Origin: a virus
DNA length: 64,000 nucleotides
Reading direction: 5' to 3' (one strand)
Virus record (IMG/VR): IMGVR_UViG_3300031236_000004
Coordinates: 1-64,000 of that record
The translations under genes were made by a program, and so were the position numbers. The notes under the pieces were generated by a model that was not told where the DNA came from, made no database searches, and saw nothing but the letters and a program-made list of their open reading frames with translations. This document shows, piece after piece, positions 1,760 through 61,731 of this stretch (the stretch's first letter is position 1; the number at the start of each line of letters is the position of its first letter).

Positions 1760-2326
1760 TCAGTGCTGGTTGACGATGCACTCGATGCAGGTGATCACAC
1801 TACCCTCGTAGGCCGCGCGGACCTTGACGTAGTGCGTTAGGTAGTGCGGGACCCCGACGAACGGCTCGAGCGTCGCGCCCGATTCTCCGAACCGGCACTG
1901 CGGCCACTGACTGAGCGGCGCTCGATCGTGGAAGACGCCCGCCGCATCAGGCAGCGGGACGACGGCCTCGGTGAAGTCGAGGGCGAGCGCGGCGCCGCGC
2001 GGGGTCAGGACGTGCTGGCCGCCGGTCAGCAGGTCCCGCTCGACCAGCTCGAGCAGGCCCCGCATGTTCGAGCGCAGGCGCCCCGACGTCCACTCGCCCG
2101 TGGCGAACTCCTCCAGCGCCGCGCGGGCCGCCTGCGAGAGGCCGAACACGTCGTCGAGCGCGAGGCAGTATCGGCACGTGGGCGCGCCGCCCCTCTTGCG
2201 AGTCCCCGGCCCGAACGCCTGCGTGCCCCGCTTCCGGCAGCACAGGGTCCAGGTCAGGTTTGACGCCCCCGTCGCCGTCTCGTGCACGACGTGCCACACG
2301 GTCCCGCGATCCGACTTGAAGATCAT
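1760..2326 (-). CDS. two-unit CIxC-family protein
   Basis: 188 residues. The ATG at 2326 follows GAGGAGG and overlaps the upstream stop (ATGA), so the longer upstream extension is rejected. It appears to hold two copies of the small family described here. Residues about 1-55 have VWHVVHE, a lone CC and then TCRYC. The C-terminal 55 residues have GVFHD, a lone Cys (QCRFG) and the terminal ITCIECI. Between them lies a helical segment (about 60-130, ARAALEEFATGEW) not found in the single-unit members. Each unit supplies one Cys pair plus a single Cys and a His, enough for one zinc site, but metal binding is inferred. Function unknown. Confidence 0.75.
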   Translation of the reverse strand: MIFKSDRGTVWHVVHETATGASNLTWTLCCRKRGTQAFGPGTRKRGGAPTCRYCLALDDVFGLSQAARAALEEFATGEWTSGRLRSNMRGLLELVERDLLTGGQHVLTPRGAALALDFTEAVVPLPDAAGVFHDRAPLSQWPQCRFGESGATLEPFVGVPHYLTHYVKVRAAYEGSVITCIECIVNQH

Positions 2327-2532
2327 GGCGCCCTCCTCGGCCTGCCGGAGTTCGCCACGCACGCGATGCAGTCGACCGGCGCGTCGACGGGCCTCGCGCG
2401 GGTGATGCCGCGCCACGCGCCACTTTCGTCCGTGACGACGACGCCGCACGTCGTCTCTCCGAATTGCTCGCTGGTCTCCGGGCGGTGCACCTCGTGCGTC
2501 ACGCCGTCCTGCGTCTGCGCCTGGCCGCTCAC
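2323..2532 (-). CDS. small CIxC-family protein
   Basis: 69 residues starting at a GTG that overlaps the upstream stop (GTGA) and ending in an ATGA overlap with the next gene. It has the family plan: DGVTHEV near the N-terminus, a single Cys in the middle (TTCG), and VDCIACV near the C-terminus, followed by a short basic tail. One of seven consecutive or near-consecutive copies between 1760 and 4033. Probably binds one zinc ion through the Cys pair plus the central Cys and the His. The biological role is unknown. Confidence 0.7.
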   Translation of the reverse strand: MSGQAQTQDGVTHEVHRPETSEQFGETTCGVVVTDESGAWRGITRARPVDAPVDCIACVANSGRPRRAP

Positions 2533-2744
2533 GGGTCCGCGTCCGGCGCCACCGCGCACAGGATGCACGTGGTGGGCAGGTCCGTTGGCGTCCAGCCCCA
2601 GGGCTGGTGCACGTTGTAGAACACGTAGACGACGTGGTTGTTGCAGAGCGCTATCGCGTACGGCACGTATTTCCGGCGGACGACGAAGCGGTGAACGATC
2701 CCGTTCTCGTTGTGGATCGCCCTGATGGTGTCCGCCTTCGTCAC
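2529..2744 (-). CDS. small CIxC-family protein
   Basis: 71 residues, GTG start overlapping the upstream stop region. Family landmarks are NGIVHRFV (about residues 14-21), a lone Cys (ALCNN) and TTCILCAVA at the C-terminus. The middle is aromatic-rich (VVYVFYNVHQPWGW), so the region between the metal ligands probably forms a small beta sheet. Stop overlaps the next gene by GTGA. No known domain recognised. Confidence 0.7.
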   Translation of the reverse strand: MTKADTIRAIHNENGIVHRFVVRRKYVPYAIALCNNHVVYVFYNVHQPWGWTPTDLPTTCILCAVAPDADP

Positions 2745-2974
2745 GTCACGTCTCCGTTGACGCGCTGCTCCGCGTTGTGCATCATGATCGCGTACCTCCC
2801 GTGCAGTTCCTGCGAGACATAGCCGTGACGCCCCGCCAGTACTCCATGTTCTCGTCCGAGCAGTGCCCCCGGGCGCTGGCCCTCATGGCCGGCCTCGCGG
2901 ACGCGGCGGGTCGGCGCGCGGACGCCGGGCAGTGGCTCGTGGAGCTGATCGGCGCGATCGTGCTGGCTCAGCAC
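2741..2974 (-). CDS. questionable ORF in duplicated segment (copy 2)
   Basis: 77-residue frame opening at a GTG that overlaps the end of the upstream gene and closing in a GTGA overlap with the next one, so the operon geometry supports it. However, third-position G+C is lower than in real neighbours, and the opposite strand is also open (2777-3046, GTG start) with slightly better codon statistics. The DNA is homologous, without gaps over about 70 bases, to 3500-3590. Either strand could be coding; see the finding on the duplicated segment. Confidence 0.35.
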   Translation of the reverse strand: MLSQHDRADQLHEPLPGVRAPTRRVREAGHEGQRPGALLGREHGVLAGRHGYVSQELHGRYAIMMHNAEQRVNGDVT

Positions 2975-3186
2975 CGCGCCAGTGCGGTCAGGCAGAGCAC
3001 GCAGGCGAGCGGCAGCTCGGTCGCCCTCAAGACGCCCTTGGCGTAGATCACGCGCGTCCTGCTCGTGACGTAGCCTTCGTCAACCTCGCAGCACGTGAAC
3101 CACGACGACTCGCTATCGGCGCGCGCCGAGGCGATGCCCTCGTGCACGACCCCGTGTGGGTCGATGAGGCGGAGCCGGTCACCCAC
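2968..3186 (-). CDS. small CIxC-family protein
   Basis: 72 residues; GTG start inside the end of the upstream gene (8-base overlap). Landmarks are LIDPHGVVHEGI at residues about 7-18, a central FTCCEVDEG and a C-terminal ACVLCLTALARC. The N-terminal LIDPxGVVHxGI string is shared with the next copy upstream (3179-3379), showing a recent tandem duplication. Ends with an extra Cys as last residue. Predicted zinc-binding mini-protein of unknown role. Confidence 0.7.
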   Translation of the reverse strand: MGDRLRLIDPHGVVHEGIASARADSESSWFTCCEVDEGYVTSRTRVIYAKGVLRATELPLACVLCLTALARC

Positions 3187-3379
3187 GGCGCCTCCCCGCG
3201 ATGCACTGGACGCACGTCGTCGCGCTCCCCGGCGGCGCCTCGCGCAGCTGCTCGTGCAGCCACAGCGTGACGACGCGGGTGCCCTCCTTCTCGCAGCGGG
3301 TGGTGCGGGTGGCGCCCAGCACGACGATGCCGTCGTGGACGACTCCCGTCGGGTCGATAAGCTGTCGGTGCCTGCTCAT
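3179..3379 (-). CDS. small CIxC-family protein
   Basis: 66 residues, ATG start overlapping the preceding frame by ATGA. LIDPTGVVHDGI near the N-terminus, a single Cys (TTRCEKEG), then TTCVQCIAG and a short Arg/Gly tail. Closest relative in the window is the downstream neighbour at 2968. A 15-base palindrome with two RTAAAC half sites lies 50 bases upstream, so transcription of this and the following genes may start there. Confidence 0.7.
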   Translation of the reverse strand: MSRHRQLIDPTGVVHDGIVVLGATRTTRCEKEGTRVVTLWLHEQLREAPPGSATTCVQCIAGRRRG

Positions 3380-3591
3380 TCGCCTCCTTCGCCCGTCGCG
3401 TTCCGCTCGGTGTGGCGCCCGCGCTCGGTGTTTATCGGATAAACGCCAGATCGTCCTAGCACGGGCGCGCGGTACGATACCCGCATCGCGTCCCGATTCC
3501 CATGGACGTCGCGCACCTCGATCCAGTCCCCAGGAGCGCCGCCCTCATGGCAGCCCTCCACCTCGCCGTCGGCAACAACCTGCACGCCCAC
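3376..3591 (-). CDS. questionable ORF in duplicated segment (copy 1)
   Basis: 71-residue frame (GTG at 3591, three bases after the upstream stop) ending in an ATGA overlap. It resembles the frame at 2741-2974 (shared QLHE just upstream, then GV and CHEG/GHEG). Against it: its C-terminal third runs through the palindrome at 3430-3444 and has weak codon bias, and the plus strand holds an equally open 63-residue frame (3502-3693, ATG). It may be an untranslated regulatory segment. Confidence 0.3.
   Translation of the reverse strand: MGVQVVADGEVEGCHEGGAPGDWIEVRDVHGNRDAMRVSYRAPVLGRSGVYPINTERGRHTERNATGEGGE
3430..3444. promoter_or_regulatory. 15-bp perfect palindrome with two RTAAAC half sites
   Basis: GTTTATCGGATAAAC reads the same on both strands around the central base. 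Each half carries the ATAAAC element found upstream of many transcription units here. It is AT-rich in a GC-rich region and lies 50 bases upstream of the ATG at 3379. Candidate operator or divergent promoter. Confidence 0.5.
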
Positions 3592-3593
3592 CT

Positions 3594-3782
3594 CTACCTC
3601 GTGGAGCTGATGGCGTGGGCGTCGTTCAGCGCCAGCAGGCACAGGATGCAGTTGACGACCGCGTCCGCGGAGGTTGCAACCCCGAGCACGTGATCGGCGC
3701 AGCACGCGCCGCACGCCAGGTGCTCGTGGTCCGCGACGTGGATGACGCCCGCGTGCCGCCGGCGCAGCGGCCACCGGCTCAC
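3594..3782 (-). CDS. small CIxC-family protein
   Basis: 62 residues; GTG start overlaps the upstream stop (GTGA). All codons end in G or C apart from a few, so the strand is certain. Landmarks: HAGVIHVADHEH, a central ACGACC and the C-terminal VNCILCLLALN. The last 30 bases, beyond the Cys pair, belong to the segment that is duplicated at 2960. Ends with TAG. Confidence 0.7.
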   Translation of the reverse strand: MSRWPLRRRHAGVIHVADHEHLACGACCADHVLGVATSADAVVNCILCLLALNDAHAISSTR

Positions 3783-4033
3783 CGGGTCAGGCACCGGATG
3801 CACGTCGCGACCGGCGCGACCTCGAGGTGCCGGACTTCTCGAGTCTCGCTGCCCAGCAGCTCGCACAGGCACATGAAGTCGACGTCGCACGCGAGAAACA
3901 GGTGGGCGCTGCCCCGGTGCTGGACGCCGGTGACGACCAGAATGTGCGCGACCCCGTGCTTGTCGAGGACGATCTCGTGGCTGCCGATCTCGGGCGGCTC
4001 CTTGAGGGAGGCGAGGACCTCGCCGAGCGTCAC
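3779..4033 (-). CDS. small CIxC-family protein
   Basis: 84 residues, GTG start in a GTGA overlap with the upstream gene. It has a longer N-terminus (LGEVLASLKEPPEIG) before DKHGVAHILVV, a central LACDVDFMCLC with three Cys, and a C-terminal ATCIRCLTR. The extra central Cys pair could allow a second metal site. First copy of the 1760-4033 cluster in transcription order. Confidence 0.7.
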   Translation of the reverse strand: MTLGEVLASLKEPPEIGSHEIVLDKHGVAHILVVTGVQHRGSAHLFLACDVDFMCLCELLGSETREVRHLEVAPVATCIRCLTR

Positions 4034-5094
4034 GGGGTCGTGGCGTCAGCCACGTAGACCATGTTCGGCATCTCGTCGGGGTCGTCGCAGACGTTGCGGC
4101 GGGTGTTGTCCAACACCCGCTGCTGCGCCTCTGCGGTGAGCAGCCGGAGCTTGTAGCTCCACAGGTCCCGCGCCGCCTCGACCTGCCGGGGCGTCAACCC
4201 GCACTCCGCGTTGGTGCTGACGTGGGCGCTGCCCGTCCAGGCGACGGACTCGGTCTGCTGCGCCCGCTCGAAGCGCGTCAGGCACTCGCCGCCCCGGATG
4301 CCGTCGATCGTCGCGACCTCGCGGACGAAGATCGCGTCGCGCAGGCTCTTGAGCGGGTCGACGCACGGCAGGACGACGGGGGCGGCGGGCGCGGCGGGCC
4401 CGGCGGCGCGCCGCGGCAGCTCGGCGATCCTCACGCGGGCATACGCGTTCGGGATTCCGCACACGCCCCGGCGCCTGCCGATGCGGCCGATATAGAAGCC
4501 GTCGTTCAGCCTGTCGATGGCCCCCACGAGCGCGTCGTACGCGTCGCTGCGCTCCTGGTCAGGGCCCACGTCGGCGACCCGGACGATCCCGGTGCCGTCG
4601 CCGAGGTCGTGGAGCACGCGCGGGTCGACGACCACGGGCGTCAGCGTCGGCTTCGCGTCGTCCCACCGCGGGATCCGCCGTACGGGGTCGTCCATCCGGG
4701 TTTCGGACGAGCGCGCGCTGCTCACGGACCACCCCGCGGGCGTGCCGCTGAGGCGGACGTCGAGGCCGTCGATGATCAATGAGTGGCTCGGGCCCTCCGC
4801 CTCGATGTACTGGAAGCAGTCCCCGGGCCTGAGGTCGCGGCGACGCAGGTTGAGCGGCGTCGCCTCGGGGTGCGTCGAGCAGTGCTCGAGCAGCTCGATC
4901 GGCCTATCGCCGTGGGTCTTCATGTATTCGCTCTTGTCGCTCTTCTCCCAGCCCCACGTGTCCCAGCCCTCGGGTTTCGGCGGGCTGGCTTCCTCGTATT
5001 TGAACGTCAGCGTCGGCTTGTGGTCGGGGGCGCTCATATCGTCGAGCGCGAAGCGCCAGCAGTCCCCGGGCTGGATGTCCCTGAGTCGCAGCAT
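4030..5094 (-). CDS. hypothetical protein with repeated RPGDC element
   Basis: 354 residues, ATG start. The N-terminal half carries the same short element twice: LRLRDIQPGDCWRF (residues 2-15) and LRRRDLRPGDCFQYI (about 83-97), each followed by a strand-rich stretch, suggesting two copies of a small beta domain. Residues about 190-230 (YIGRIGRRRGVCGIPNAY) and the C-terminal helical region after an Ala/Pro linker (about 235-245) are not recognised. It is the first large gene upstream of the CIxC cluster and is translationally coupled to it by a GTGA overlap. Confidence 0.75.
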   Translation of the reverse strand: MLRLRDIQPGDCWRFALDDMSAPDHKPTLTFKYEEASPPKPEGWDTWGWEKSDKSEYMKTHGDRPIELLEHCSTHPEATPLNLRRRDLRPGDCFQYIEAEGPSHSLIIDGLDVRLSGTPAGWSVSSARSSETRMDDPVRRIPRWDDAKPTLTPVVVDPRVLHDLGDGTGIVRVADVGPDQERSDAYDALVGAIDRLNDGFYIGRIGRRRGVCGIPNAYARVRIAELPRRAAGPAAPAAPVVLPCVDPLKSLRDAIFVREVATIDGIRGGECLTRFERAQQTESVAWTGSAHVSTNAECGLTPRQVEAARDLWSYKLRLLTAEAQQRVLDNTRRNVCDDPDEMPNMVYVADATTP

Positions 5095-6949: not shown

Positions 6950-7055
6950 GTCCGAGTCCTTCCTCCAGGCGCGAGAGCGTCACGCGGGCCATGACGCCCC
7001 GGCACTTGCCGCAGCTGATCCCGACGGGCCTACGCGTGATCAGCGACTGCGGCAC
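6885..7055 (-). CDS. small zinc-ribbon protein
   Basis: 56 residues, GTG start preceded by GAGAGGCGG. Two Cys pairs, SCGKCRG (about 14-20) and FECTACGRR (about 39-47), are spaced as in a classical zinc ribbon, followed by a basic tail (RRVKRVPPDAR). Third positions favour G/C. It overlaps the start of the metallopeptidase gene by 65 bases in another frame and begins 24 bases before the upstream gene ends. Too short for most gene callers. Confidence 0.65.
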   Translation of the reverse strand: MPQSLITRRPVGISCGKCRGVMARVTLSRLEEGLGHEGFECTACGRRVKRVPPDAR

Positions 7056-7311
7056 ACCGCCGCCTCTCCCACAGCACCGCGCCGCGCACGCGGCTCCCGG
7101 GGGCTCCCAGCTTCGCGAGGCCCTGGTGGATGTAGTACTTCGCCGTGTGCTCGCTGATCCCGAGCTTGGCGGCGATCAGCTTGTTCGACAGGCCCTCCAG
7201 GAGCAGGTCCAGGCACTCCACCTCGCGCGGCGACACCGGGTCGCCGGGTCGCGGCTCTCGCGGCCGGATCTTCGCGTAGTGGCGCGGAGGCTGGCGGTTC
7301 ATCACTTCCAT
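7030..7311 (-). CDS. LuxR/GerE-type helix-turn-helix protein
   Basis: 93 residues from the ATG at 7311 (a GTG at 7305 and an ATG at 7302 in the TGATG overlap are alternatives). Residues about 27-65 are a LuxR-type domain: SPREVECLDLLLEGLSNKLI then AKLGISEHTAKYYIHQGLAK, with the usual Pro-Arg-Glu start and the recognition helix after GISEHT. There is no receiver or ligand domain, as in stand-alone regulators. Likely a DNA-binding transcription regulator of the phage or of host genes. Confidence 0.75.
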   Translation of the reverse strand: MEVMNRQPPRHYAKIRPREPRPGDPVSPREVECLDLLLEGLSNKLIAAKLGISEHTAKYYIHQGLAKLGAPGSRVRGAVLWERRRCAAVADHA

Positions 7312-7496
7312 TGCATCAGACCCTCCCATGGTTCGTCCACACCATCCCCCTCCCGCCTTACCCACTTGCAGTCGCGATGCGAGCACGCGTGGCGGCACGG
7401 GAACACGTCGCCGCAGTTCGCGCAGCGCTCGAACCTGCCGCCGCGGATCGGGCGCCAGACGTGCTCGTCGTTACGGCAGCGCTTACGCCGCGGCAC
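7302..7496 (-). CDS. small Cys/His zinc-finger-like protein
   Basis: 64 residues, GTG start inside the end of the upstream gene. Cys/His pattern RCANCGDVFPCRHACSHRDC (about residues 24-43) holds six Cys and two His within 20 residues, consistent with two interleaved zinc sites. The N-terminus is strongly basic (PRRKRCR). Unknown role; nucleic-acid binding is plausible. Confidence 0.65.
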   Translation of the reverse strand: MPRRKRCRNDEHVWRPIRGGRFERCANCGDVFPCRHACSHRDCKWVRREGDGVDEPWEGLMQWK

Positions 7497-7812
7497 CGCG
7501 GCGCATCCGCGGTGGCACCGTCCTCCCCGTCGCGTGCTCCGCCAGCCACGCCACCGCGACGGCCTCGGCCGCCTCGGCCACGTCCCCGGAGAGGTCGTCC
7601 GGGTTCGCGCGCACGCGCGCGGTCACCCTGACGTCGTCCATGCGGACCGCGACCAGCGTGGCCGGGGTCCGGTTGCTCAGGATCGAGACGCCGACGTCGG
7701 CCCGGGTCGGGAACTCCCAGCCCTGGACGCGCAGGCTGTCCAGCACCGACCGGATGCGGTGCGCGAAGACCTCGGTGTAGATGTCACGCAATTCCTGCTC
7801 GCTATCGCTCAT
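7483..7812 (-). CDS. hypothetical protein
   Basis: 109 residues, ATG start overlapping the previous gene by 11 bases. Helical N-terminus (EQELRDIYTEVFAHRIRSVL), a central beta-rich part (TLVAVRMDDVRVTARV), and an Ala-rich helix near the end. No motif recognised. Confidence 0.65.
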   Translation of the reverse strand: MSDSEQELRDIYTEVFAHRIRSVLDSLRVQGWEFPTRADVGVSILSNRTPATLVAVRMDDVRVTARVRANPDDLSGDVAEAAEAVAVAWLAEHATGRTVPPRMRRGAAA

Positions 7813-8023
7813 GCCTCAGCTCCTCGGTGATGCACAGGATGCAGTTGACGGGTTCATTCGTCAGCACGTTGCGGTTGCCCGCGTTCACTTTCATGCGCAG
7901 CCCGCACCAGGCAACTTTCGGGCCCGCGCGGCTCGTGGGCGGCTCGCGATCGTTACCCCACGTGTTCACGTCGCACCTGATGGAGTGCACGACGCGGTCG
8001 TGCCGGCGGACGGCGACGCGCAC
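7802..8023 (-). CDS. small CIxC-family protein
   Basis: 73 residues. The GTG start overlaps the upstream TAG (TAGTG). Landmarks: HDRVVHSIRCDV, a central AWCGLRMKV and the C-terminal VNCILCITEELRHER. This copy is 3.8 kb away from the main cluster but has the same VNCILC string as the copy at 3594, so it was probably dispersed by duplication. Confidence 0.7.
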   Translation of the reverse strand: MRVAVRRHDRVVHSIRCDVNTWGNDREPPTSRAGPKVAWCGLRMKVNAGNRNVLTNEPVNCILCITEELRHER

Positions 8024-9620: not shown

Positions 9621-9899
9621 CTACAGCCTCCCGCAGTCGACGCAGCGGGGACCGTCGGCCGTCATGACGGTCGGCCGCAGGACCGTTCGACCGAAGGCCC
9701 ACGGCGTGCGCCCCTCCTCGCCGAGGCGGATCGCTTCGAACCGCGGACCGTACTTGCAGATGTAGGCGCGGACGACGCGCACGTGCCACCAGTACCTCGC
9801 CAGGCTGCCGGTGTGGACGTGGACGACGTCGCCGACTACCGGCAGCCCACGACCATCGTGAAACCAATCGTCACGGGGTGGCTCCCCGAACCCCCGCAC
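9621..9899 (-). CDS. probable divergent CIxC-family protein
   Basis: 92 residues from the GTG at 9899; an ATG at 9941 is possible but would overlap the lipoprotein gene further. GDVVHVHTG, a single Cys (YICKYG) and the C-terminal PRCVDCGRL follow the family order (VxH, lone Cys, Cys pair), with Asp/Gly replacing the usual Ile. The middle contains WWHVRVVRAY. Assignment to the family is tentative. Confidence 0.55.
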   Translation of the reverse strand: MRGFGEPPRDDWFHDGRGLPVVGDVVHVHTGSLARYWWHVRVVRAYICKYGPRFEAIRLGEEGRTPWAFGRTVLRPTVMTADGPRCVDCGRL

Positions 9900-19814: not shown

Positions 19815-20081
19815 TCAGTCGCCGTCGCCCTGCGCCTCGTCGATCATCGTCATGTCCTCGGTCACGCCGCGGAGGATGTCGTCCACGCCTCCGAGCGCGT
19901 AGCGCGTGATGCACTGGATGCAAGTGACCGGGAGGGTCTCGTCCTCGTTGACTCGCGCGTCGAAGTAGCGACCGCAGGTCGTGTACGTTTTCGACCGGAG
20001 AGCGTACTTACGCTGGGCGCTCGTCAAGCCCACGGCCTCGTGTCGCACGCCGTACCCGTCGAGCACCGTGCCCCGGGCCAC
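19815..20081 (-). CDS. small CIxC-family protein
   Basis: 88 residues from the GTG at 20081, five bases after the upstream stop; an ATG at 20153 is less likely because it would overlap that gene by 66 bases. Landmarks: DGYGVRHEAVG, a lone Cys in YTTCGRYF and VTCIQCITRYA. Unlike other copies it has a 28-residue acidic tail after the Cys pair. It lies 16 kb from the main cluster and converges on the dNMP kinase gene. Confidence 0.7.
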   Translation of the reverse strand: MARGTVLDGYGVRHEAVGLTSAQRKYALRSKTYTTCGRYFDARVNEDETLPVTCIQCITRYALGGVDDILRGVTEDMTMIDEAQGDGD

Positions 20082-20694: not shown

Positions 20695-21207
20695 TCAGAC
20701 GGCGATCATCACGGTCACGCCGTGCTTGTGCAACACGTGAGCGGCCGCGGGCTCGCGCAGGATGCGCGCGAGCACCAGCATGCCCTCGGCCAGGGGCTTC
20801 TCCGAGAACCACAGCCGCGCGGCGCCGCCCGCCAGCTGGGACGCCGGCTGGCCGTCTTCGTCGTCATCAGCGGGCACGTTCCAGGCGTAGTCCCCGTGGC
20901 GGACGCCGATGCCGGCACCCGCGAGCGCCCGCGCGACTGGCGCCACCGCGCTCAGCTCGATCAGGCAGGCCGCGAGCACGCCCACGGCGTCGCCCGGGTT
21001 GACGACGCGGTGCGACGTGACGTCGAAGCACGCGTGCCGCGAGCGGATGACGTACCGCCCGGGGATGCGCAGGTCCGCGTCCTTGTCGACGTCTTGGATG
21101 TCGATCTTGTCGCTGGGCGGCTGCGGGCGCGGCGGCGCCTGGCGCAGCGGCTCGACCTTGCGCCACGGGTCGAGGATGCCGGGCTTCTTGGGGCCGCCGT
21201 CGGTCAC
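20695..21207 (-). CDS. hypothetical protein
   Basis: 170 residues, GTG at 21207 in a GTGA overlap. Pro-rich N-terminus, a central IPGRYVIRSRHACFDVTSHR, and a helical C-terminal half (FSEKPLAEGMLVLARILREP). Nothing recognised. Confidence 0.65.
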   Translation of the reverse strand: MTDGGPKKPGILDPWRKVEPLRQAPPRPQPPSDKIDIQDVDKDADLRIPGRYVIRSRHACFDVTSHRVVNPGDAVGVLAACLIELSAVAPVARALAGAGIGVRHGDYAWNVPADDDEDGQPASQLAGGAARLWFSEKPLAEGMLVLARILREPAAAHVLHKHGVTVMIAV

Positions 21208-21431
21208 GGCGCGATCACGATCCCGCCCTCGAGCGCCGGGTCGGCGCACGAGGCGTGGACGAACTCGAACTCGGCGGCAAGCTCGGCCGAGAGCTGCTTG
21301 GTCGCCGGGTCGCGCGTGTTCGGGTTCTTGACGATGTACGCCGGCGTCATGCGGTCGCCGGCCCTGAACGGCTTGCGGCAGCGGGCGCAGGTCGTGTGGG
21401 GGACGCGCTGCCTGAGGACGTCAAGAGTCAT
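21204..21431 (-). CDS. small zinc-binding protein
   Basis: 75 residues; ATG in a TGATG overlap. TTCARCRKPFRAGDRM near residue 13 and HASCADP near 59 form a treble-clef-like pattern (CxxC then HxxC). Probably structural zinc; function unknown. Confidence 0.65.
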   Translation of the reverse strand: MTLDVLRQRVPHTTCARCRKPFRAGDRMTPAYIVKNPNTRDPATKQLSAELAAEFEFVHASCADPALEGGIVIAP

Positions 21432-45651: not shown

Positions 45652-47511
45652 TCAGGCGATGCTACACGCGCCGCCCGCGCACGCGGGCTCCGCGGTCACG
45701 CTCGTCCCGTCCTCGGCCTCCACCATCGAGTAGTAGTCGACCGGCCGGTAGTCCGCGATCAGCTCGTTCCAGCGGCGCTCCTGGGCCTCGGTGCGCACAG
45801 CCTCGAACGGCGCGAAGGCGTAGATCGTGTCCGTGTCGTCGGGCACGAGCGACACGCCCGTGAAGTCGCCGCGGTTCCGCCAGAGGTAGTCCGCGACCGT
45901 CTTCCACTCGTCGGACCTCACCGTAATCGTGTTCGACACGTTGTGGCTCGCGTCGCCGCGCGCGGTGCCCGGCACGACCCAGCTCTGCTGCGTCGAGCGG
46001 ACCACCTCCATGAACTGCTCGGCGGTCAGGTCCTCCTTGAGCGTCGCCCCCTCGGGAGCCTCGACGGGGAACTCGACGGTCCACTTCCCGTTCGGCATGC
46101 GCTGGCACATGTGCGGGTTGACCTGCCTGAACGCCTGGAACACGGCCTCGTACTCGTCCGCGGTGACGCGGCGGATGTAGCGCCGGGCGTGGTGCGGGTG
46201 GATGCCGGACCCGACGTTGCCCAGCTCGAGAGACGTCGTGTTGTGGCTCTTAACAGCTCCGTCGTAGAACCAGTGCGTTCCCTCAACCTCGACGTCAAAT
46301 GTCGGCATCACGCCGAGCGAGCGAACCTCGCGCACCTTGCCTGCGATTTGACGACCCCGCTTTGTCTCTTTATCCATCTGCCATTCGACAAAACGAGAAT
46401 CCGTCATGTGCATCGAACATTTCACGCTGCATGCGACCAAGTGCGCGAAGGCATCCCGATCTGTGGGGCCCGCCGCCAGCACGAGGTGATACAAGTGCCG
46501 TTCGGATTGGAAACTCTCTCCTTGGGATTGCAGCGACCGACCGAAACCAAGGCCCACCGACCACATGACCTGCTGAAAATGTCGCGCGAATGCCTCGGTC
46601 GCAGAAGACACTTGGACTCGACTGCCCGTCGACGTCGGGGAAACGCAGCCATCCGAGTCGACCAGCCCCGATGCGAACGCCACGACGTGTCGCCACGACG
46701 AGCTGCGAACGCAGCGCGGAATGATGTCGAGCGTCTTTGCTTCGGCGTATTTTTCTAGTCCATTGCGTACACACCACAGCCACAGGTGCTTCGAAGCGAC
46801 CTCTAGGCTAGCCGCGTTGCGGTCTGTCAATTCGACCACCTCCCCGCGCAAGCCGAACTTCTCTTCGATGATCTGAGCAGCCTTCGCGATCGTCTGACGA
46901 TTTCCGTCGACAAACCGCAGCCGGTATTTGCTGACAGACATCGCGCCGTCTCCCCATAGATAGCCGGCGAGCCACGCCAGGTCATCATCCATGACCATAG
47001 GCATCGTGATCGGTCGAGCGTTTGAGCGCATCGTTAACGCTCGGGGATTAACAGCCTTCAACGAGGCTGCGTGTTCGTTCCGATAAGGCGCGATGGCCAC
47101 GTCGAGCACATCTCCGGGGCGCAGCTCGCCCGCCGGAATCCAAGCATCCACGGGCGTCCAATGAGACGTACTATTGTGGTCGTGATGGGCGTGCACACGC
47201 CACGGATGGTTCCTCGTAGAACGGACCACCAGACCGAAATTCATTTCGACTTCGAGGACTTCAGCGAGGCCGTTGTCGAACGTTTTGGTGAGGCGAGACT
47301 GGGTCCCGTCTTGGACGGCAGACAAACCTTCAACGGGGGCCCACGTTTCCCCCGTTGGATGGTCCGCAAATAACTCTTCCAGCGTTAGGACGCCGCAGTT
47401 GGTCACCGTCAAGGAGTCCCACGGGCGACACCCGCTGGGCTTGACGCAGGTCGTCCTCGCCGCGGGGTTGATGTCGAGCACCTCCGCCCACTCCGCGTTC
47501 CACGCGATCAC
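45652..47511 (-). CDS. nrdJ: class II ribonucleotide reductase, C-terminal part with intein
   Basis: 619 residues from a GTG at 47511 without ribosome site, in the same frame as the N-terminal part and separated from it by a TAG and six codons. Extein parts: NPAARTTCVKPSG before and TTSLELGNVGSGIHPHHARR after the intein, the conserved KPSG-T/TS region of adenosylcobalamin-dependent reductase, and the C-terminal redox pair ACAGGACSIA. May be made by reinitiation (as a split enzyme like Pseudomonas NrdJb), by amber readthrough, or not at all if the TAG is a fault. Confidence 0.7.
   Translation of the reverse strand: MIAWNAEWAEVLDINPAARTTCVKPSGCRPWDSLTVTNCGVLTLEELFADHPTGETWAPVEGLSAVQDGTQSRLTKTFDNGLAEVLEVEMNFGLVVRSTRNHPWRVHAHHDHNSTSHWTPVDAWIPAGELRPGDVLDVAIAPYRNEHAASLKAVNPRALTMRSNARPITMPMVMDDDLAWLAGYLWGDGAMSVSKYRLRFVDGNRQTIAKAAQIIEEKFGLRGEVVELTDRNAASLEVASKHLWLWCVRNGLEKYAEAKTLDIIPRCVRSSSWRHVVAFASGLVDSDGCVSPTSTGSRVQVSSATEAFARHFQQVMWSVGLGFGRSLQSQGESFQSERHLYHLVLAAGPTDRDAFAHLVACSVKCSMHMTDSRFVEWQMDKETKRGRQIAGKVREVRSLGVMPTFDVEVEGTHWFYDGAVKSHNTTSLELGNVGSGIHPHHARRYIRRVTADEYEAVFQAFRQVNPHMCQRMPNGKWTVEFPVEAPEGATLKEDLTAEQFMEVVRSTQQSWVVPGTARGDASHNVSNTITVRSDEWKTVADYLWRNRGDFTGVSLVPDDTDTIYAFAPFEAVRTEAQERRWNELIADYRPVDYYSMVEAEDGTSVTAEPACAGGACSIA
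46240..47430 (-). mobile_element. intein 3 of ribonucleotide reductase (397 aa, LAGLIDADG)
   Basis: Begins with Cys (GCRPWDSLTVTN) after KPSG and ends KSHN before Thr, so the next extein residue is a Thr. Block B is VRSTRNHPWRVH. LAWLAGYLWGDGAMSV and VAFASGLVDSDGCVSP are the two LAGLIDADG helices of a homing endonuclease. The DNA is distinctly lower in G+C than the exteins. Junctions are exact at TGT 47430 and AAC 46240. Confidence 0.9.
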
Positions 47512-47529
47512 GCGCGCGGCGATCGCGCG

Positions 47530-47532
47530 CTA
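47530..47532 (-). other. in-frame TAG interrupting ribonucleotide reductase
   Basis: TAG lies between NPAF and RAIAARVIAWNAEWAE with no missing sequence. The expected residue is probably Gln, one transition (CAG to TAG) away. Confidence 0.9.
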
Positions 47533-50500
47533 GAAGGCCGGGTTGCAGGCGACGTGCGGCGCGTCCTGCATGCCGGTCATGCCGACGCCGAGCAGGGCGT
47601 CGCGGCGCACGATGGCCTCCGTCACCTTGCCGAGGTAGGGCATGTCCGTGTACGTGGCCTGCAGCGTCCCGATGACGGTCGCGGCCCAGGCCGCCTCGCG
47701 GAAGTCCTCGAACGAGGTGAGCCTCGCCGCGTTGATCTCGGTGAGGTTGCACATCGCCCAGCCCGTCGATCTCGTCTCGTTCGCGTGTTCGAGAACCGGT
47801 TGGAGGTTGATCTCACCGCAGTTCGACACGAGCAGCCCACCCGTCCAGTACGTGTGCTCCTCAGCCTCGACGGTGATGTCGTAGACGGAATGGTCGCCCA
47901 TGGTCGTCCGACACTCGATCTCGTGCGTGGACCGGCCGTCTTGGTTCGGATACAGGGCTCTGTCGATCGAGCGGGCCTCACGGACCTCCACGCGCTTTCC
48001 GTGAACCATCACGCGGTGGTTCTCCGTTCCGAAGAAAACCCCGGCTTGCGTGTGGTAACCGAAGACCGGCTTGACCCCGGTCAATACCTTGTGCGTGATC
48101 TTCGTCCACCTGACCCCGGACCAGATCGTACTCCCGACGCCGACGTCATCGAAGGTGCGGATGCCGTCGGGCGTGAGCACCGTCGCCCACCCAGGCTGAC
48201 AAGGGTTCGTGACGTGGTCGTAGTCGTTCACGAACAACACGCCGGGCTCCCCGTAGTGCCGCGTCATCCCGAAGATCCGCTTGAACTGCTTCTCCTTCGC
48301 CTCGTCGCGCTTGAGCACGACCGAGTTGTTCGCGTTGGCCAGCCAGGGTTCCTTGTTGAACCAGCTGCGGTCTGCCTTGACGTTCATTAGCTCGCTGTCC
48401 TCAAGCGAGAACAGGCAGATCATCGCGCTGTTATGAACGAGTAAGCCTTCGGCCACAAATTCGTGGTCACGTTCGATCGTAAGATCAAACGTCGCACTCG
48501 TTCCTACGCCTTGCTTGACTTCGATTACGGCGATCGGCATGAGCCCACGCCGATCTACGCCGCAGCGCTCTGCCGTGCCCGCTGTCATCTGGGCACTGAC
48601 GGGTGACCATTTGGTGTTGTAGTTGACGTCTTCGCCGAGGATGAATTCGCGCGGGTACCCGTAATCGAACTGCGTTCCAGTACGGGCGGGCGCGCGCTTG
48701 ACGGCGTGTGGAGCAACGCGCGCGTCAAAGGCTCTACGCGGGAGTTCTCCGACGAGAGTCAGGTGCCACAGCGCTTGCCAGGTTCCCTGCTCCGGCCGGT
48801 TGAGCTTCATTCGCGTGACGATTCCCAAGCTGGCGTATACGGCTCGAACTTGCCGCACGAAGTCAGGGTAGACCGAGGATAAGAGGAGGAGCGGCCGATT
48901 GTCAGCCCCACCATCAGAATCCAACAGACCAGCCAAGTAGGCTCCACGAATAACCGGGAGTCCCTCCAGTACACACGCTGGCACGTGCAACGGGACCTTC
49001 GGCTGCTTGAAGTTCTCGCAGTAGAGCGCCAACTGTTTTCCAGCCGCTGAAACGCGGCGCGTCTCCTCGCCCTCGAGCTTCACGTCAGAACAAGACACGC
49101 CCATGCGCGCTAAAACCGCACGGAGCCTCCTCACACGCTCAGGCGTTTCTTCGTCTTGTTCGTTCATGCTGAACGATACGCAGTTGGACCCTCCCTCTGT
49201 GGAGGTTCGATTCACGTGCACGTAACCGTTTCCGTGGAGATACCCGAGAAACCACGCGATCTCCTCGTCGAGGTCTGGGACGTGGATGTCAACGCTCGTG
49301 TGGTCGTGAGGCGATCGCTCGTAGGACCACGGAGGCAACGATGTCGTGTGGCCCTCAACGACATGATCAACAAACACCATTCGGTCACCGGGCTTGAGCG
49401 AGCCCGCCGTCTTCCATTCGTACGCCGCTGTGCTCGTCAGCACGGCCACGCGATGGTTGGCCGTGCAGCGAAACGGCCCCATCTGCGTAGTCACTTCAAC
49501 AAGCTGTTGCGTGCCCTGTTCGATGACGTCAGTGACGCGCGACCATCCCGCAGCAGTGCGGGCCGCGTCTCCAGCGCGGACCGCTTCGATGGGGACGAGG
49601 CCCCGGGTCAAGTGGACAAGCGTTCCAGCGGGCAAGCAGCGCCGGATGCCGCCGGAGAGCACCGCGTCGGCCGCGTGACACATGACGCGGTGGGCCTCGA
49701 TCGGTCGTAGCTGACGCCCCTGGGCGCCCGCGAGCACCTCGCGGACGCGCTCGAGCGCGAGCTTCAGCTTGAGGTGGCCCGGGGCGCGGCCGCCCGACGT
49801 CTTGAGCGGCGAACCCGCCCGGCGGATCAGGTGGTACGCGAACTCGACGTGGTAGCCGCCGATGAATCCGCTCACGAGCGCGTCGAGCGCGTTGGCCCAG
49901 CCCTCGATCGTGTCCTCGATGACGTGGTGGACGACCTTCTTGGAGTCGACGTCGGCGATCGGAGGGAGCTTCTCGACGTGCTCGTATTGGACGGAGTACC
50001 CCACGCCGCAGCCGCACAGGAGCAGGTACATCGCCTCGGCGAACGCGCGCGGGCGGTCGACGAGCGTCGCGGAGCAGTTGTACTGCCGGCAGTGGACCGC
50101 CTCGACGGCGGGACCTCCGAACTGCATGGACCGCATCGACGGCAGGACGCGCTTGTCGCGGACGAGGTCGAACGCCCGCCGGATCTCGGCGAGGCGCGCC
50201 TCCGGCAGGTGCGCGAAGCGGCGCAGGTGCATCGCCTCGACGCGCGCGACGGTTTCGTCGTAGACCTCGCGGCGCTGCTCGTCGGGGAGGTAGCGCGCGT
50301 ACTTGCTGGCGTGGATGTAGTCCGACACGGCGAGCGAGTTCGGGCGCAGGCGCTCGCGGCGGGCCTCGGACCGCATCTGGCGGTAGATGATGTACGCCTT
50401 CGCGACGGCGAACTTCTTGGCGCGCATGAGCGCGACCTCGACCAGGTCCTGGATCTGCTCGACGTCCGCGACGTCCGCGGGGAGCGTCGCCGCGACGAAC

Positions 50501-50667
50501 GAGACCACCCGGTGGACCTCCTCGGCGTCGGCCGCGCCCTCCACCTCGAGCCACGCCTTGCGCACCGCGCTCTCGATCTTCCCGACGTCGAACGGTTGTG
50601 TGGTCCTGCCGTCCCGCTTGCGAACCGTGGTGGGCTGAACGACGGGAATATCGAACGACGATTGCAT
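47530..50667 (-). CDS. nrdJ: class II ribonucleotide reductase, N-terminal part with two inteins
   Basis: 1045 residues, ATG with AGGAG eight bases upstream. Reduces ribonucleotides to deoxyribonucleotides. ATP-cone VRKRDGRTTQPFDVGKIESA at the N-terminus; SMQFGGPAVEA and CRQYNCSA include a first redox Cys; EDTIEGWANALDALV and LSGGIRR-SAMICLFSLED are typical of adenosylcobalamin-dependent enzymes; NP-CGEINLQP carries the thiyl-radical Cys. Inteins interrupt the gene after GGIRR and NP. The frame ends at TAG 47530-47532 after NPAF, where family members normally continue. Cofactor B12 would have to come from the host. Confidence 0.85.
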   Translation of the reverse strand: MQSSFDIPVVQPTTVRKRDGRTTQPFDVGKIESAVRKAWLEVEGAADAEEVHRVVSFVAATLPADVADVEQIQDLVEVALMRAKKFAVAKAYIIYRQMRSEARRERLRPNSLAVSDYIHASKYARYLPDEQRREVYDETVARVEAMHLRRFAHLPEARLAEIRRAFDLVRDKRVLPSMRSMQFGGPAVEAVHCRQYNCSATLVDRPRAFAEAMYLLLCGCGVGYSVQYEHVEKLPPIADVDSKKVVHHVIEDTIEGWANALDALVSGFIGGYHVEFAYHLIRRAGSPLKTSGGRAPGHLKLKLALERVREVLAGAQGRQLRPIEAHRVMCHAADAVLSGGIRRCLPAGTLVHLTRGLVPIEAVRAGDAARTAAGWSRVTDVIEQGTQQLVEVTTQMGPFRCTANHRVAVLTSTAAYEWKTAGSLKPGDRMVFVDHVVEGHTTSLPPWSYERSPHDHTSVDIHVPDLDEEIAWFLGYLHGNGYVHVNRTSTEGGSNCVSFSMNEQDEETPERVRRLRAVLARMGVSCSDVKLEGEETRRVSAAGKQLALYCENFKQPKVPLHVPACVLEGLPVIRGAYLAGLLDSDGGADNRPLLLLSSVYPDFVRQVRAVYASLGIVTRMKLNRPEQGTWQALWHLTLVGELPRRAFDARVAPHAVKRAPARTGTQFDYGYPREFILGEDVNYNTKWSPVSAQMTAGTAERCGVDRRGLMPIAVIEVKQGVGTSATFDLTIERDHEFVAEGLLVHNSAMICLFSLEDSELMNVKADRSWFNKEPWLANANNSVVLKRDEAKEKQFKRIFGMTRHYGEPGVLFVNDYDHVTNPCQPGWATVLTPDGIRTFDDVGVGSTIWSGVRWTKITHKVLTGVKPVFGYHTQAGVFFGTENHRVMVHGKRVEVREARSIDRALYPNQDGRSTHEIECRTTMGDHSVYDITVEAEEHTYWTGGLLVSNCGEINLQPVLEHANETRSTGWAMCNLTEINAARLTSFEDFREAAWAATVIGTLQATYTDMPYLGKVTEAIVRRDALLGVGMTGMQDAPHVACNPAF
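47821..48201 (-). mobile_element. intein 2 of ribonucleotide reductase (127 aa mini-intein)
   Basis: Begins CQPGWATVLTPDG after NP and ends GGLLVSN before CGEI. Block B is FGTENHRVMVHG (TxxH). No endonuclease domain, so only the splicing fold remains. The penultimate residue is Ser instead of the usual His. Inserted directly before the catalytic Cys of NPCGEI. Confidence 0.9.
48430..49638 (-). mobile_element. intein 1 of ribonucleotide reductase (403 aa, LAGLIDADG)
   Basis: Begins CLPAGTLVHLTRG after GGIRR and ends EGLLVHN before Ser (SAMICLF). Block B is FRCTANHRVAVL. IAWFLGYLHGNGYVHV and YLAGLLDSDGGADN are the LAGLIDADG helices. DNA is lower in G+C than the exteins. Confidence 0.9.
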
Positions 50668-53218: not shown

Positions 53219-54369
53219 GCAGCCGCCTTCTCCCTCACCGGCGGCAACATGATCTGCCCGGCGACCTCCTCCAGCTCGAGGCGCCGCTCCGGCACCGTCA
53301 GGCTCTTGGCGAACCAGCTGATCGCGTTGGCCAGCCGGGCCTTCGTCGCCCCGCTCGGCAGCATCTCGACGTCCCCGTCGACGAACAGCTCCTTGACCTT
53401 GTCGATCTCGCCCTTGAGCAGGCCCAGCCCGGGCAGCTCCTTCCACGCCTCGGCCGGGACGATCCGGGCCTCGAGCGCCTCGCCGATGCGGCCCACGAGG
53501 GCGTTGACCTTGTCCGGCGCGAGCACCTGGTGGACCATGTCCTTCACGGCCGAGACCATGAGGTCGGTGTCGAGGCGGTAGGTCTCCTTGGAGAACACCA
53601 TGTCGTCCGAGAGTCGCTTGCCGATGTGGATCTTCCGCATGACCTGCTCGAGGGTCGCCGTGTTCGTGCAGACCAGGCGCGTGCAGAACGCGTTGAGCCC
53701 GAGCGGGCCCTTGCCGAAGTCCGAGTTGGAGAGCTGGAGCCCGAAGGCCACCACCTCCTCCATGCCGCGCTTCGCGGAGGGCTGGAACACGTGCGGCAGC
53801 ATCGCCTTGATGGCCCAGCGCAGGTCCCCGCCGATGCCCTCGACGGGAACCGCTCCGATCTTCCCGCACGCTTCGACGAATGCCTTGATGATCGGCTCGG
53901 AGTCCATGCGCTTGAACGAGTCGGACAGGACCCCGCGAACCTCGCCGTCGACGGAGCGGACGAGGAGCTTCTTGTTCTCCTCCTCTCGGTAGATCCGCGA
54001 CAGGTTCTCGATGATCAGCTCGCGACCGTAGGGCTTGTCGAGCAGGCGGTTGACGTACGTGCTGGGGATGCCCGCGCGCTCCGCGATCTGGTCGAGGCCG
54101 TTCTTGTGGAGCCGGTTGCAGAAGTAGTGCTCGGCCTGGTGGTTGCGCGGGCCCATCAGGATGGCGTTGCTGTCCTCCTCGCCGTCGACCAGGAACTCGA
54201 GCTGGGTCGAGTCCGCGAGGCGGTCGTCCGGCGTCTCGCGGATGACCTTCTCGAAGACGGTCATCGCGCTGTGCTGCGTCCGGTGGATCATCTCCTCGAG
54301 CTTGGTCTTGAAGCCGGCGGCCGCCTCGCCGAGGGCAACGTCGTAGTCCTTGTCGCTGTGGTGGATCAT
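53215..54369 (-). CDS. DUF932-like phage protein
   Basis: 384 residues from the ATG at 54369 (ATGA overlap). RSVDGEVRGVLSDSFKRMDS near 155, YRLDTDLMVSAVKDMVHQVL in the middle and AGIPSTYVNRLLDKPYGREL near 104 fit the DUF932/plasmid-like group, widespread in phages and plasmids with suspected DNA or single-strand-binding roles. C-terminus helical (LANAISWFAKSLTVPERRLE). Cotranscribed with the VWA peptidase and a CIxC protein. Confidence 0.6.
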   Translation of the reverse strand: MIHHSDKDYDVALGEAAAGFKTKLEEMIHRTQHSAMTVFEKVIRETPDDRLADSTQLEFLVDGEEDSNAILMGPRNHQAEHYFCNRLHKNGLDQIAERAGIPSTYVNRLLDKPYGRELIIENLSRIYREEENKKLLVRSVDGEVRGVLSDSFKRMDSEPIIKAFVEACGKIGAVPVEGIGGDLRWAIKAMLPHVFQPSAKRGMEEVVAFGLQLSNSDFGKGPLGLNAFCTRLVCTNTATLEQVMRKIHIGKRLSDDMVFSKETYRLDTDLMVSAVKDMVHQVLAPDKVNALVGRIGEALEARIVPAEAWKELPGLGLLKGEIDKVKELFVDGDVEMLPSGATKARLANAISWFAKSLTVPERRLELEEVAGQIMLPPVREKAAA

Positions 54370-54563
54370 GGTTTCTTCGCGCTTTCGTGGATGCACCAGA
54401 TGCAAGTCACTGGTGCTCCGTAGATGGGTCGTGGCTGCAGCCACAAGACGGTTGGATGGTGGTGATCGCACAGGGAAAGTCGGTCCGTGTGCGTGAGCTT
54501 GAGGTGGAGGACGCCGTGGTTGTCGCTGTACGCGGCGTCCAGCGTGAAGCGGGGACGTGTCAC
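54366..54563 (-). CDS. small CIxC-family protein
   Basis: 65 residues, GTG in a GTGA overlap with the VWA gene. SDNHGVLHLKL, a lone Cys in LSLCDHHHP and VTCIWCIHES give the full family pattern. It is the farthest copy, 50 kb from the main cluster, placed between the VWA metallopeptidase and the DUF932-like gene, which may hint at a regulatory or adaptor role. Confidence 0.7.
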   Translation of the reverse strand: MTRPRFTLDAAYSDNHGVLHLKLTHTDRLSLCDHHHPTVLWLQPRPIYGAPVTCIWCIHESAKKP

Positions 54564-58980: not shown

Positions 58981-61731
58981 GTGGCGGAAGCAGTCTACAG
59001 GTCGACGATCGCGCAGGGGTTGTTCTACGTGGACGGCAAGCCCCTGTCGCTCGCGGACTACCCGATGTTCGAGGCCGTGTACGACGGCCAGTACTCGCGC
59101 ATCCTGCTCAAGACTGCACGTCAAGTTTCCAAAAGTACGACGCTCGCCGCCTTCATGATCGCGGAGGCCATCGCGGTCGTCCCGTTCAAGTCGTACTACG
59201 TCTCACCCACGCAGGAGCAGACCCGGAAGTTCTCGCACACGCGCGCTGCGAAGATCCTGGCGTACAGCCCAGACGTGCGGAAGAAGTACATCGGCCCGGA
59301 GTCCATCGACAACGTCTACCTGCGCATACTCAAGAACGGCTCGGAGATGGCGTTCACGTACGCCATGGACGACCCGGACAGGGCGCGCGGCTACTCGGCG
59401 GACCGAACGTGTTTCGACGCGACTGCCGAAGTCCTCACGCGCGTGGGTTGGAAGCTCGTGCGCGCCTTGACGCCGACCGACGAGGTCGGGGTGCTCGCAC
59501 CGGACGGCGCGCTCGAGTGGCACCGACCCACGCGACTCATTCAGTTCCGCCACAAAGGCTCGATGGTTTGCTTCACCCACCACGGCGTTTCACTTCGAGT
59601 GACCTCCAACCACAAGATGTGGGTGAACTTTAGAGTCAAGACCTCACCTACCTTCAAGACGCCAGATGTTTGGGAGTTCGTTGAAGCGGGGTCTCTGGCG
59701 AACACGACGCGCATGGGCTTCAAGTTCACGGGTCGCGCTGTCCTGCGCGGGAGTCAGGTGCCGCAGGTTAAGGTGCTCGAGGGCGGGGAAGGCTATGAAG
59801 TAAGTCGGCGTTCGCTCTCGATCCCATTTCTGGAATTCGCCGAGTTGGTGGGTTGGTACCTCTCCGAGGGCTCGATCGTCTGGAAGATGCTCAACGGTCG
59901 TCGCCAAGCGCGCGGCGGCGCAGGTGTGTTCTCGAACGGGTTCGCACCGCGCCGCGCGCCGAAGGGCGTCTCGATCGTGCAATGTCCGGGACCCCATGCA
60001 GACCGCATCAAGCGGTGCCTCCGTGCCTGCGGCCTCGTGTTTTCTGCACACCCAACTGAATACCAAACCAGCAGGGGCGCACGCCTCACGCACGCGTACG
60101 TCGTCACATCCGCACAGCTCGGCAGCTACTTCGAGGGGCAGGGGCTCTGCCGGGATAAGCACATTCCAGAAGAGTTCTTTGAACATCCAGCCGCACTGAC
60201 GCGGCTGTTGGAGAGCCTTCACTTCGGAGATGCGACCATGCGCGATGGGACACTGCGCACGCGTTCGAAGCGTCTGGCGGATGACGTCCACCGCGCGTGG
60301 ACCCTGCTCGGGCGGTCTTCTGCCATCCACACGCGAATGATGGCGCCGCGCCCCGGCGCTCCTTTGGAGCCTCTGTACGAGGTTCAGGCCTTCAAATACG
60401 ACTACCACGTGTTCTGGCGGCCCGAATTCGAGTCGAAGAAGCGCGTCGTCGTAGAACAGGTTGTAGACGAGGACGTCTTCTGCTTCACCGTCAAACACCA
60501 TCGTCCGATCGTGCGCGGCGGATTTGGACAGAGACCTATCGTTACGGGTCAGTGCTTCGACGAAGTGCAGGACATGGTCTTCGAGGCGGTCATCCCAGTC
60601 ATCGAGGAGTGCATGGCGGCGTCGAAGTATCAGTACTCCTCGTACTGCGGCACGCCCAAGACGATGGAGAACACCATCGAGGTCCTGTGGGGGCTCTCGT
60701 CGCAGACCGAGTGGTGCATGCGGTGCGACGCGTGCTCGAAGTGGACGTTCGTCGCGAGCACGAAGGCGATCGGGAAGAAGGGGCTCATCTGCCTCTCGTG
60801 CGGCGGCCTCCTGAATCCGCGCAACGGCAAGTGGATCGACATGGCGAGCGGCCAGGGCATCAAGGGCTTCCACATCAGCCAGGCGATCATGCCGACGAAC
60901 GTACCGGCCGCGTGGCAGCCGGGGACGGAGGGGTACGACGTCGCCGTCGACCGCTGGGAGAAGCTGCTCTACAAGATGGAGTCGCCGCTCTACGGCGAGT
61001 CCAAGTTCCTCAACGAGTGCATCGGCGTCAGCACGTCGACCGGCGTCCGCCTCCTCACCAAGGAGATCCTCGAGGCCCTCTGCGACGACAAGCTCGCCAT
61101 CACGCGGCTGCCGACCCCGACCTCGCTCCAGGGCATCGTCCGCGTCGTCGCCGGCGTCGACTGGTCCGGCGGCGGCGGCGAGGTCAAGGGCAGCGAGGGC
61201 CTCTACAAGTCCCGCACGGTGTTCCACGTCTGGGGTCAGCAGCCGGACGGCAGGCTCCGCACGCTCACCTCGAAGGTCTTCCCCAACGGGCATGCCACCG
61301 GCTGGATCGACGAGATCGTCGAGTTGTGCAACGCCTGGGGCGTTCAGATGGTCGGCTGCGACGCCGGTGAGGGCGCGCTCGCCAACTCGTTCCTGCGCCA
61401 GCGCCTCGGCGACCAGCGGGTCCTCGCGTTCAAGTACCAGATGATGTCGAAGCCGCTCGAGTGGAACCCCGCCGCGCTGACGTACAACGTCGACAAGACC
61501 ACGATGGTCGACACCTACGCGCGCATGCTGCTCCACAAGCAGGTCGTCTACCCGAACCTCCGGGACGCGAAGGTGGCCATCGACGACATCCTCAACGTCT
61601 ACGAGGAGATCACGCCGAGGGGCATGAGGGTCTGGAAGCACTCGCCGGTGATGCCTGACGACAGTCTTCACGCCCAAATTTTCGCGTGGTTAGCCTGGGG
61701 CGTGCTGTCGGGGAACCTGAAGTTCAACTAG
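58981..61731 (+). CDS. terL: terminase large subunit, intein-containing
   Basis: 916 residues before splicing, 535 after; GTG start. DNA-packaging motor and nuclease. ATPase: ARQVSKST near 46-53 (Walker-A-like, as in T4 gp17 SRQLGKTT), Walker B in CFDEVQDMVFEAVIP restored after splicing, TPKT coupling element after SSYCG. A zinc knuckle CMRCDACSKW with LICLSCGG follows. Nuclease: VAGVDWSGGGG, GCDAGEGALAN and PDDSLHAQIF carry the acidic residues. The intein sits between SADRT and CFDEVQ, next to the ATPase acidic pair. Small subunit is not visible in the window. Confidence 0.85.
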   Translation: MAEAVYRSTIAQGLFYVDGKPLSLADYPMFEAVYDGQYSRILLKTARQVSKSTTLAAFMIAEAIAVVPFKSYYVSPTQEQTRKFSHTRAAKILAYSPDVRKKYIGPESIDNVYLRILKNGSEMAFTYAMDDPDRARGYSADRTCFDATAEVLTRVGWKLVRALTPTDEVGVLAPDGALEWHRPTRLIQFRHKGSMVCFTHHGVSLRVTSNHKMWVNFRVKTSPTFKTPDVWEFVEAGSLANTTRMGFKFTGRAVLRGSQVPQVKVLEGGEGYEVSRRSLSIPFLEFAELVGWYLSEGSIVWKMLNGRRQARGGAGVFSNGFAPRRAPKGVSIVQCPGPHADRIKRCLRACGLVFSAHPTEYQTSRGARLTHAYVVTSAQLGSYFEGQGLCRDKHIPEEFFEHPAALTRLLESLHFGDATMRDGTLRTRSKRLADDVHRAWTLLGRSSAIHTRMMAPRPGAPLEPLYEVQAFKYDYHVFWRPEFESKKRVVVEQVVDEDVFCFTVKHHRPIVRGGFGQRPIVTGQCFDEVQDMVFEAVIPVIEECMAASKYQYSSYCGTPKTMENTIEVLWGLSSQTEWCMRCDACSKWTFVASTKAIGKKGLICLSCGGLLNPRNGKWIDMASGQGIKGFHISQAIMPTNVPAAWQPGTEGYDVAVDRWEKLLYKMESPLYGESKFLNECIGVSTSTGVRLLTKEILEALCDDKLAITRLPTPTSLQGIVRVVAGVDWSGGGGEVKGSEGLYKSRTVFHVWGQQPDGRLRTLTSKVFPNGHATGWIDEIVELCNAWGVQMVGCDAGEGALANSFLRQRLGDQRVLAFKYQMMSKPLEWNPAALTYNVDKTTMVDTYARMLLHKQVVYPNLRDAKVAIDDILNVYEEITPRGMRVWKHSPVMPDDSLHAQIFAWLAWGVLSGNLKFN
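59410..60552 (+). mobile_element. intein of terminase large subunit (381 aa)
   Basis: Begins CFDATAEVLTRVGWK and ends QRPIVTGQ, followed by Cys of the extein CFDEVQ. Block B is LRVTSNHKMWV. The C-terminal residue is Gln instead of Asn, an uncommon splicing variant. ELVGWYLSEGSI and ESLHFGDATMRDG are likely LAGLIDADG-type helices. DNA has lower G+C than the extein. Confidence 0.85.

Follow-up and report, generated by a model that had tools for sequence, protein, structure and literature searches.

The closest described counterpart of the locus reported here is the zinc-ribbon expansion of Bacillus phage G, about 35 copies (for example YP_009015343.1) that its authors term unprecedented and suggest to act either as specific transcription factors or as structural proteins that bind DNA (PMC7824862). 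Two further points of comparison are small proteins that occur singly. DUF3039 (PF11238) places a His, a CG and a CxxC in that order within one small domain, as seen in the three proteins that we compared, and each of the three actinobacterial genomes searched holds one copy. Streptomyces phage AbbeyMikolon encodes a protein (CDS 21044-21406) with an H-x10-C-x16-CPTC plan, the probable counterpart of Nesbitt protein A0A2P1JT35, and we saw a single such gene in it.

We analysed a 64,000-nucleotide stretch (the window) of an 86,621-base uncultured virus record, P1, and found by six-frame reading 10 minus-strand genes that together hold 11 units of the plan H-x(~15)-C-x(~20)-CxxC. Each unit has a Gly-hydrophobic-x-His element, a single Cys about 15 residues further on and, about 20 residues later, a C-terminal T-C-hydrophobic-x-C. 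The His and the three Cys are the sole invariant positions across all 11 aligned window units, and they are invariant also in wider alignments of 50 and 72 sequences. In the profile search that had been named beforehand as a possible refutation of their kinship, the members proved to be related. A scan of 50 members against Pfam, PHROG and NCBIfam (E 0.1 or better) returned isolated matches of single members and no consistent family, and within the open-access literature we found no description of the family.

Like the present expansion, that of phage G is a lineage-specific set of small, partly clustered proteins in which a zinc site is presumed, and the phage that carries it is very large. 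In contrast, phage G infects Bacillus, whereas P1 and its relatives are uncultured and belong to a lineage that encodes RNA polymerase domains of its own, and phage G gp32 lacks the H-C-CxxC plan, showing instead CPIC and CPHGC elements together with a YWKENDRYL tail common to its paralogues. Scored against the family profile, gp32 reached -1.7 bits, and the first 50 kb of phage G gave nothing better than E 5.6. The two expansions are the same kind of phenomenon in different families.

DUF3039 membership was rejected, as the best scores (18.3 and 17.5 bits) fall short of the curated cut-off of 22.7 bits. The family could nevertheless have originated by capture and amplification of single-copy DUF3039-type actinobacterial or actinophage proteins, an account of origin compatible with any function; the ligand order is identical, the first unit of the two-unit protein described below matches DUF3039 weakly (E 0.0036 and 3.6e-4, below the cut-off), and single look-alikes exist in a Streptomyces phage and another viral contig. 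Since that one unit alone gives a DUF3039 signal, and since profile-profile comparison (hhalign) returned a probability of only 14%, we regard this origin as improbable. The AbbeyMikolon gene shares the plan of the units, although the family profile gave no significant match in that phage, and the model of the Nesbitt protein aligns at TM 0.68 over 51 columns with a nonsignificant E of 1.8. A 435-kb viral record without significant match to the family contains a unit-like ORF at 4297-4569 (H, CG and PTCLDCIAK; E 0.02). The original prediction had pointed to short actinobacterial and phage proteins ending in VTCxxCL; single genes of the same plan do exist elsewhere, in agreement with it, whereas one VTCxxCL-style actinophage probe, a sample of such proteins and no survey, returned no match. 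Searches of cultured phages and plasmids found no match to the family, profile searches of six bacterial genomes yielded no member, and none was present in the searched stretches of phages Jay2Jay (its first 50 kb) and D29 (49 kb). Bacterial matches to a TCLxCIA pattern were attributed to chance, since those among the matches listed lack the His. The novelty lies in the size of the expansion and its upkeep across a lineage.

That lineage was recovered in three ways. A DNA pattern for TCIxCI found P2, a 158-kb record with 23 matches to the window profile; a second DNA pattern found P3, a 175-kb record; and alignment of a protein that is 84% conserved, and portal-like by reading, found 23 contigs of the same lineage, P4-P8 among them. 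P1 is colinear with P2 and P3 across most of its length. A profile trained on all eight records, P1 and its seven uncultured relatives, gives a conservative count of 181 units: 62 in P4, 39 in P2, 33 in P3, 26 in P5, 8 in P1, 8 in P6, 3 in P8 and 2 in P7, with the numbers in fragmentary records being minima. The window's own profile finds 11 in P1, a circular figure, as that profile was built from those units, and eleven is also a minimum, because the main cluster sits at one end of the P1 record while the P2 and P3 arrays continue. The more distant phage P6 contains a variant unit ending in VDCMTCLV. P4 (187,862 bases, 187.9 kb) is the sole record showing an end repeat, an 89-base direct terminal repeat, and is therefore probably complete; unit genes occupy about 7% of it. 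The original proposal, an expanded family new to description whose units share one HCCC site, put at a dozen copies in one phage, is thus well supported and exceeded, with tens of paralogues of one small domain per genome in P2-P5 (26 to 62 each). Phage genomes are compact, which makes it remarkable that about 7% of one is given over to a 60-residue module in about sixty versions.

Most of the window's units lie in its first 4.1 kb. The two-unit member (1760-2326) comprises unit A (about 2326-2144), a linker and unit B (about 1969-1760), with the HCCC ligands in each; both units have reciprocal best hits to units in P2 35610-36203 and P3 9695-10351. The single-unit members follow: 2323-2532 starts with the GTG of a GTGA, the 4 bases in which it overlaps the upstream stop, and has orthologues at P2 35449 and P3 10467; 2529-2744, again with a GTG start within a 4-base overlap, is recognised by plan and profile; 2968-3186 carries the plan and is the reciprocal best hit of P2 34137; and 3179-3379 carries it behind an ATG start and pairs reciprocally with P3 11313. 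Lowest in profile support within the window is 3594-3782 (GTG start within a 4-base overlap), which is backed by both position and sequence, a similar unit lying at the same place in P4 (135493-135891). The last member of the cluster, 3779-4033, has an additional N-terminal segment, VTLGEVLA, and an orthologue at P2 33144 (reciprocal best hit, E 4e-12) as well as one at P3 12497-12892. This member and both units of 1760-2326 are, like 3594-3782, weak ones that gain their support from the other phages. Between these members, at 2741-2974, lies a small ORF that has no HCCC plan, is 52% conserved in P2 and shares a 4-base overlap with the next member.

Three copies stand away from the main cluster: 7802-8023, with syntenic reciprocal best hits at P2 29662 and P3 18827; 19815-20081, which has the plan, profile support and a C-terminal extension; and 54366-54563, with a GTG start in the 4 bases that it shares with the gene ending at 54560 and a unit at the matching place in P3 (63994-64158). 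For all ten genes the coordinates, the plan and the two units within 1760-2326 agree with the original prediction. Two of its other claims fell away. The ORF at 9621-9899, offered as a probable member, lacks the plan, has just CVDCGRL at its end and is unmatched in profile searches. The genes at 2968 and 3179, thought to be recent duplicates, are the closest pair in the window yet only 47% identical, and their best partners in other phages differ.

Could short cysteine-rich ORFs of this kind arise without common descent, as convergent small zinc knuckles or as spurious frames in a GC-rich genome, so that there is no single family? The sequences are short and of low identity, and shuffled records yield roughly 3-9 HCCC-like patterns each by chance. 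The observed numbers (13, 46 and 44 per record) are well over the 3, 9 and 9 expected, and the first 4.1 kb of the window holds seven plan-bearing ORFs, against 0 in 19 of 20 Markov shuffles and 2 in the remaining one; the cluster at 1760-4033 is not a chance product. In addition, a profile derived from the window picks up independent arrays in other phages, the codon-position pattern and a dN/dS of about 0.25 indicate coding selection, and gene order is conserved between phages. Counts, profile, coding selection and order together refute chance or convergence as a general explanation, which we hold to be extremely improbable, although single weak matches may be of this kind.

The arrangement of the genes is regular. 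Each record has all its units on a single strand, and 44 of the 89 close neighbouring unit pairs have an exact 4-base stop/start overlap, the usual mark of coupled translation; the tightly packed chains are probably co-transcribed. Unit order matches between phages, and 19 P2-P5 pairs give one circular order. Some units form part of larger proteins, which join two units through a linker that by reading resembles a winged helix, a zinc-ribbon-like segment to a unit, or an HNH-like segment to a unit. The last type, with an HNH-like NTCGLATCINPRHW segment and a C-terminal unit, occurs at P2 59066-59791 and P3 164850-165407, which are 72% identical to each other. In Pfam, the winged-helix-, zinc-ribbon- and HNH-like partner segments had no confirming match. 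A LuxR-type helix-turn-helix protein (GerE, E 6e-13) is encoded at 7030-7398, and its counterpart lies within the second P2 array.

Because orthologues can be read across a lineage-wide expansion, age, selection and gene order become measurable. Copies from one genome share a median of about 31% identity, with 58% as the upper limit for any pair, which indicates that the expansion is old. Between P2 and P3, the median identity is 50% for counterpart units and 69% for the other conserved ORFs. Approximate dN/dS, with dS near saturation, is about 0.25 for P2-P3 (23 pairs), P2-P5 (19 pairs) and P3-P5, and all site classes in these three closest phage pairs are under purifying selection (about 0.2-0.4). 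The dN/dS analysis by site class found no positive selection among orthologue pairs; a few site classes in distant pairs gave values near or above 1, from 25-53 codons with saturated dS, and were not trusted. The expectation that the variable middle evolves faster than the ligands held, with both under constraint: ligands are 90-100% identical between orthologues (98-100% in the three closest pairs, of which P2-P5 and P2-P3 give 98-99%), while loops are 42-54% identical in those pairs. The copies are thus individually maintained and diverge faster than the core genome, yet under constraint. Old syntenic copies argue for stable specialised roles over rapid arms-race turnover.

Structure prediction gives a beta hairpin, followed by a loop and by a helix at the C-terminus. 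AlphaFold2 reached a pLDDT of 75 from 50 sequences and of 82 from 72, and the latter model has strands at 2-4 and 10-13, further bridges, and a helix at 42-50 starting at the CxxC. The modelled His sits on the second strand, followed by the single Cys and by the CxxC that opens the C-terminal helix, a layout of beta hairpin and helix that could close a single zinc site. One zinc per unit would be consistent with the invariant ligands and the predicted fold. The model had no significant fold match in the PDB or among viral models.

The family represents an ancient expansion, specific to this lineage, of a single small module of about 55-70 residues that probably binds zinc, and each phage makes many diverged, stably inherited versions of it from probably co-transcribed chains. 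On indirect evidence we propose, tentatively and at somewhat below even likelihood, that most copies act as adaptors or inhibitors that bind particular host proteins, in takeover or counter-defence. The metal site would provide a rigid core and two loops a variable contact surface. The family itself, its copy number, the fixed ligands, the conserved order and purifying selection are what the data show directly; zinc binding, joint transcription, and protein-protein contact with its targets are all inferred. The units are not basic on average (mean net charge -0.6 per 60 residues), and since they are neutral to acidic we disfavour a general nucleic-acid binder; this charge, the variable loops on a fixed core, the chains of tiny coupled genes and the variable copy number favour protein-binding adaptors. 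The two-unit member and the fusions to other segments would suit a binding module. Weighing against such adaptors, this family turns over more slowly than many counter-defence genes do. The stronger form of the proposal, in which a genome carries one zinc scaffold in up to about sixty versions, each specialised for its own host partner and all kept as a fixed syntenic set, we consider rather doubtful; if true, a phage of less than 190 kb would possess a viral multigene family of binders. Single copies are short enough for parallel expression, and if they do bind different host proteins, the array would amount to a list of bacterial control points and a source of candidate counter-defence proteins.

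The main rival to adaptors is that the units are regulators of the phage RNA polymerase: transcription regulators or nucleic-acid binders that tune this enzyme or its sigma factor, each at its own promoters. Beyond the window, the source record encodes a 1456-codon ORF (80931-85301) with Rpb2_6, Rpb2_3, Rpb1_1 and Rpb1_2 domains (Rpb2_6 E 2e-39 for beta; Rpb1_2 E 1e-18 for beta') and a separate sigma-70 factor (72046-73155), so that RNA polymerase components are supplied by the phage itself. Regulation is also what the phage G authors proposed for their zinc ribbons (PMC7824862), and the HNH-like segment joined to a unit in P2 and P3, noted by eye, points the same way, as would the roughly 10-20% of P2-P5 copies with a net charge of +3 or more, which by sequence could bind nucleic acid. 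Conserved order and purifying selection suit regulators equally well. Since the units are on average neutral to acidic, and since they matched no known DNA-binding family or solved fold, we judge regulators less likely than adaptors. Less likely still would be a mixed family, in which a generic zinc scaffold serves unrelated jobs (inhibitors, regulators, structural parts) with no single function. Net charge spreads widely (SD about 3), copies within a genome differ by about 70%, and units are fused to different partners, but the compact motif that all copies share around the four ligands, like their tight clustering, suggests that they may have one role in common.

WhiB, a marker of an actinobacterial host, was absent from the six records searched for it. 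The lineage also encodes its own DNA polymerase, primase and helicases. Within the window, the ribonucleotide reductase and terminase frames (45652-50667 and 58981-61731) are apparently split by intein-like segments (CLPAGTLVHLTRG... and CFDATAEVLTRVG...), as read by eye.
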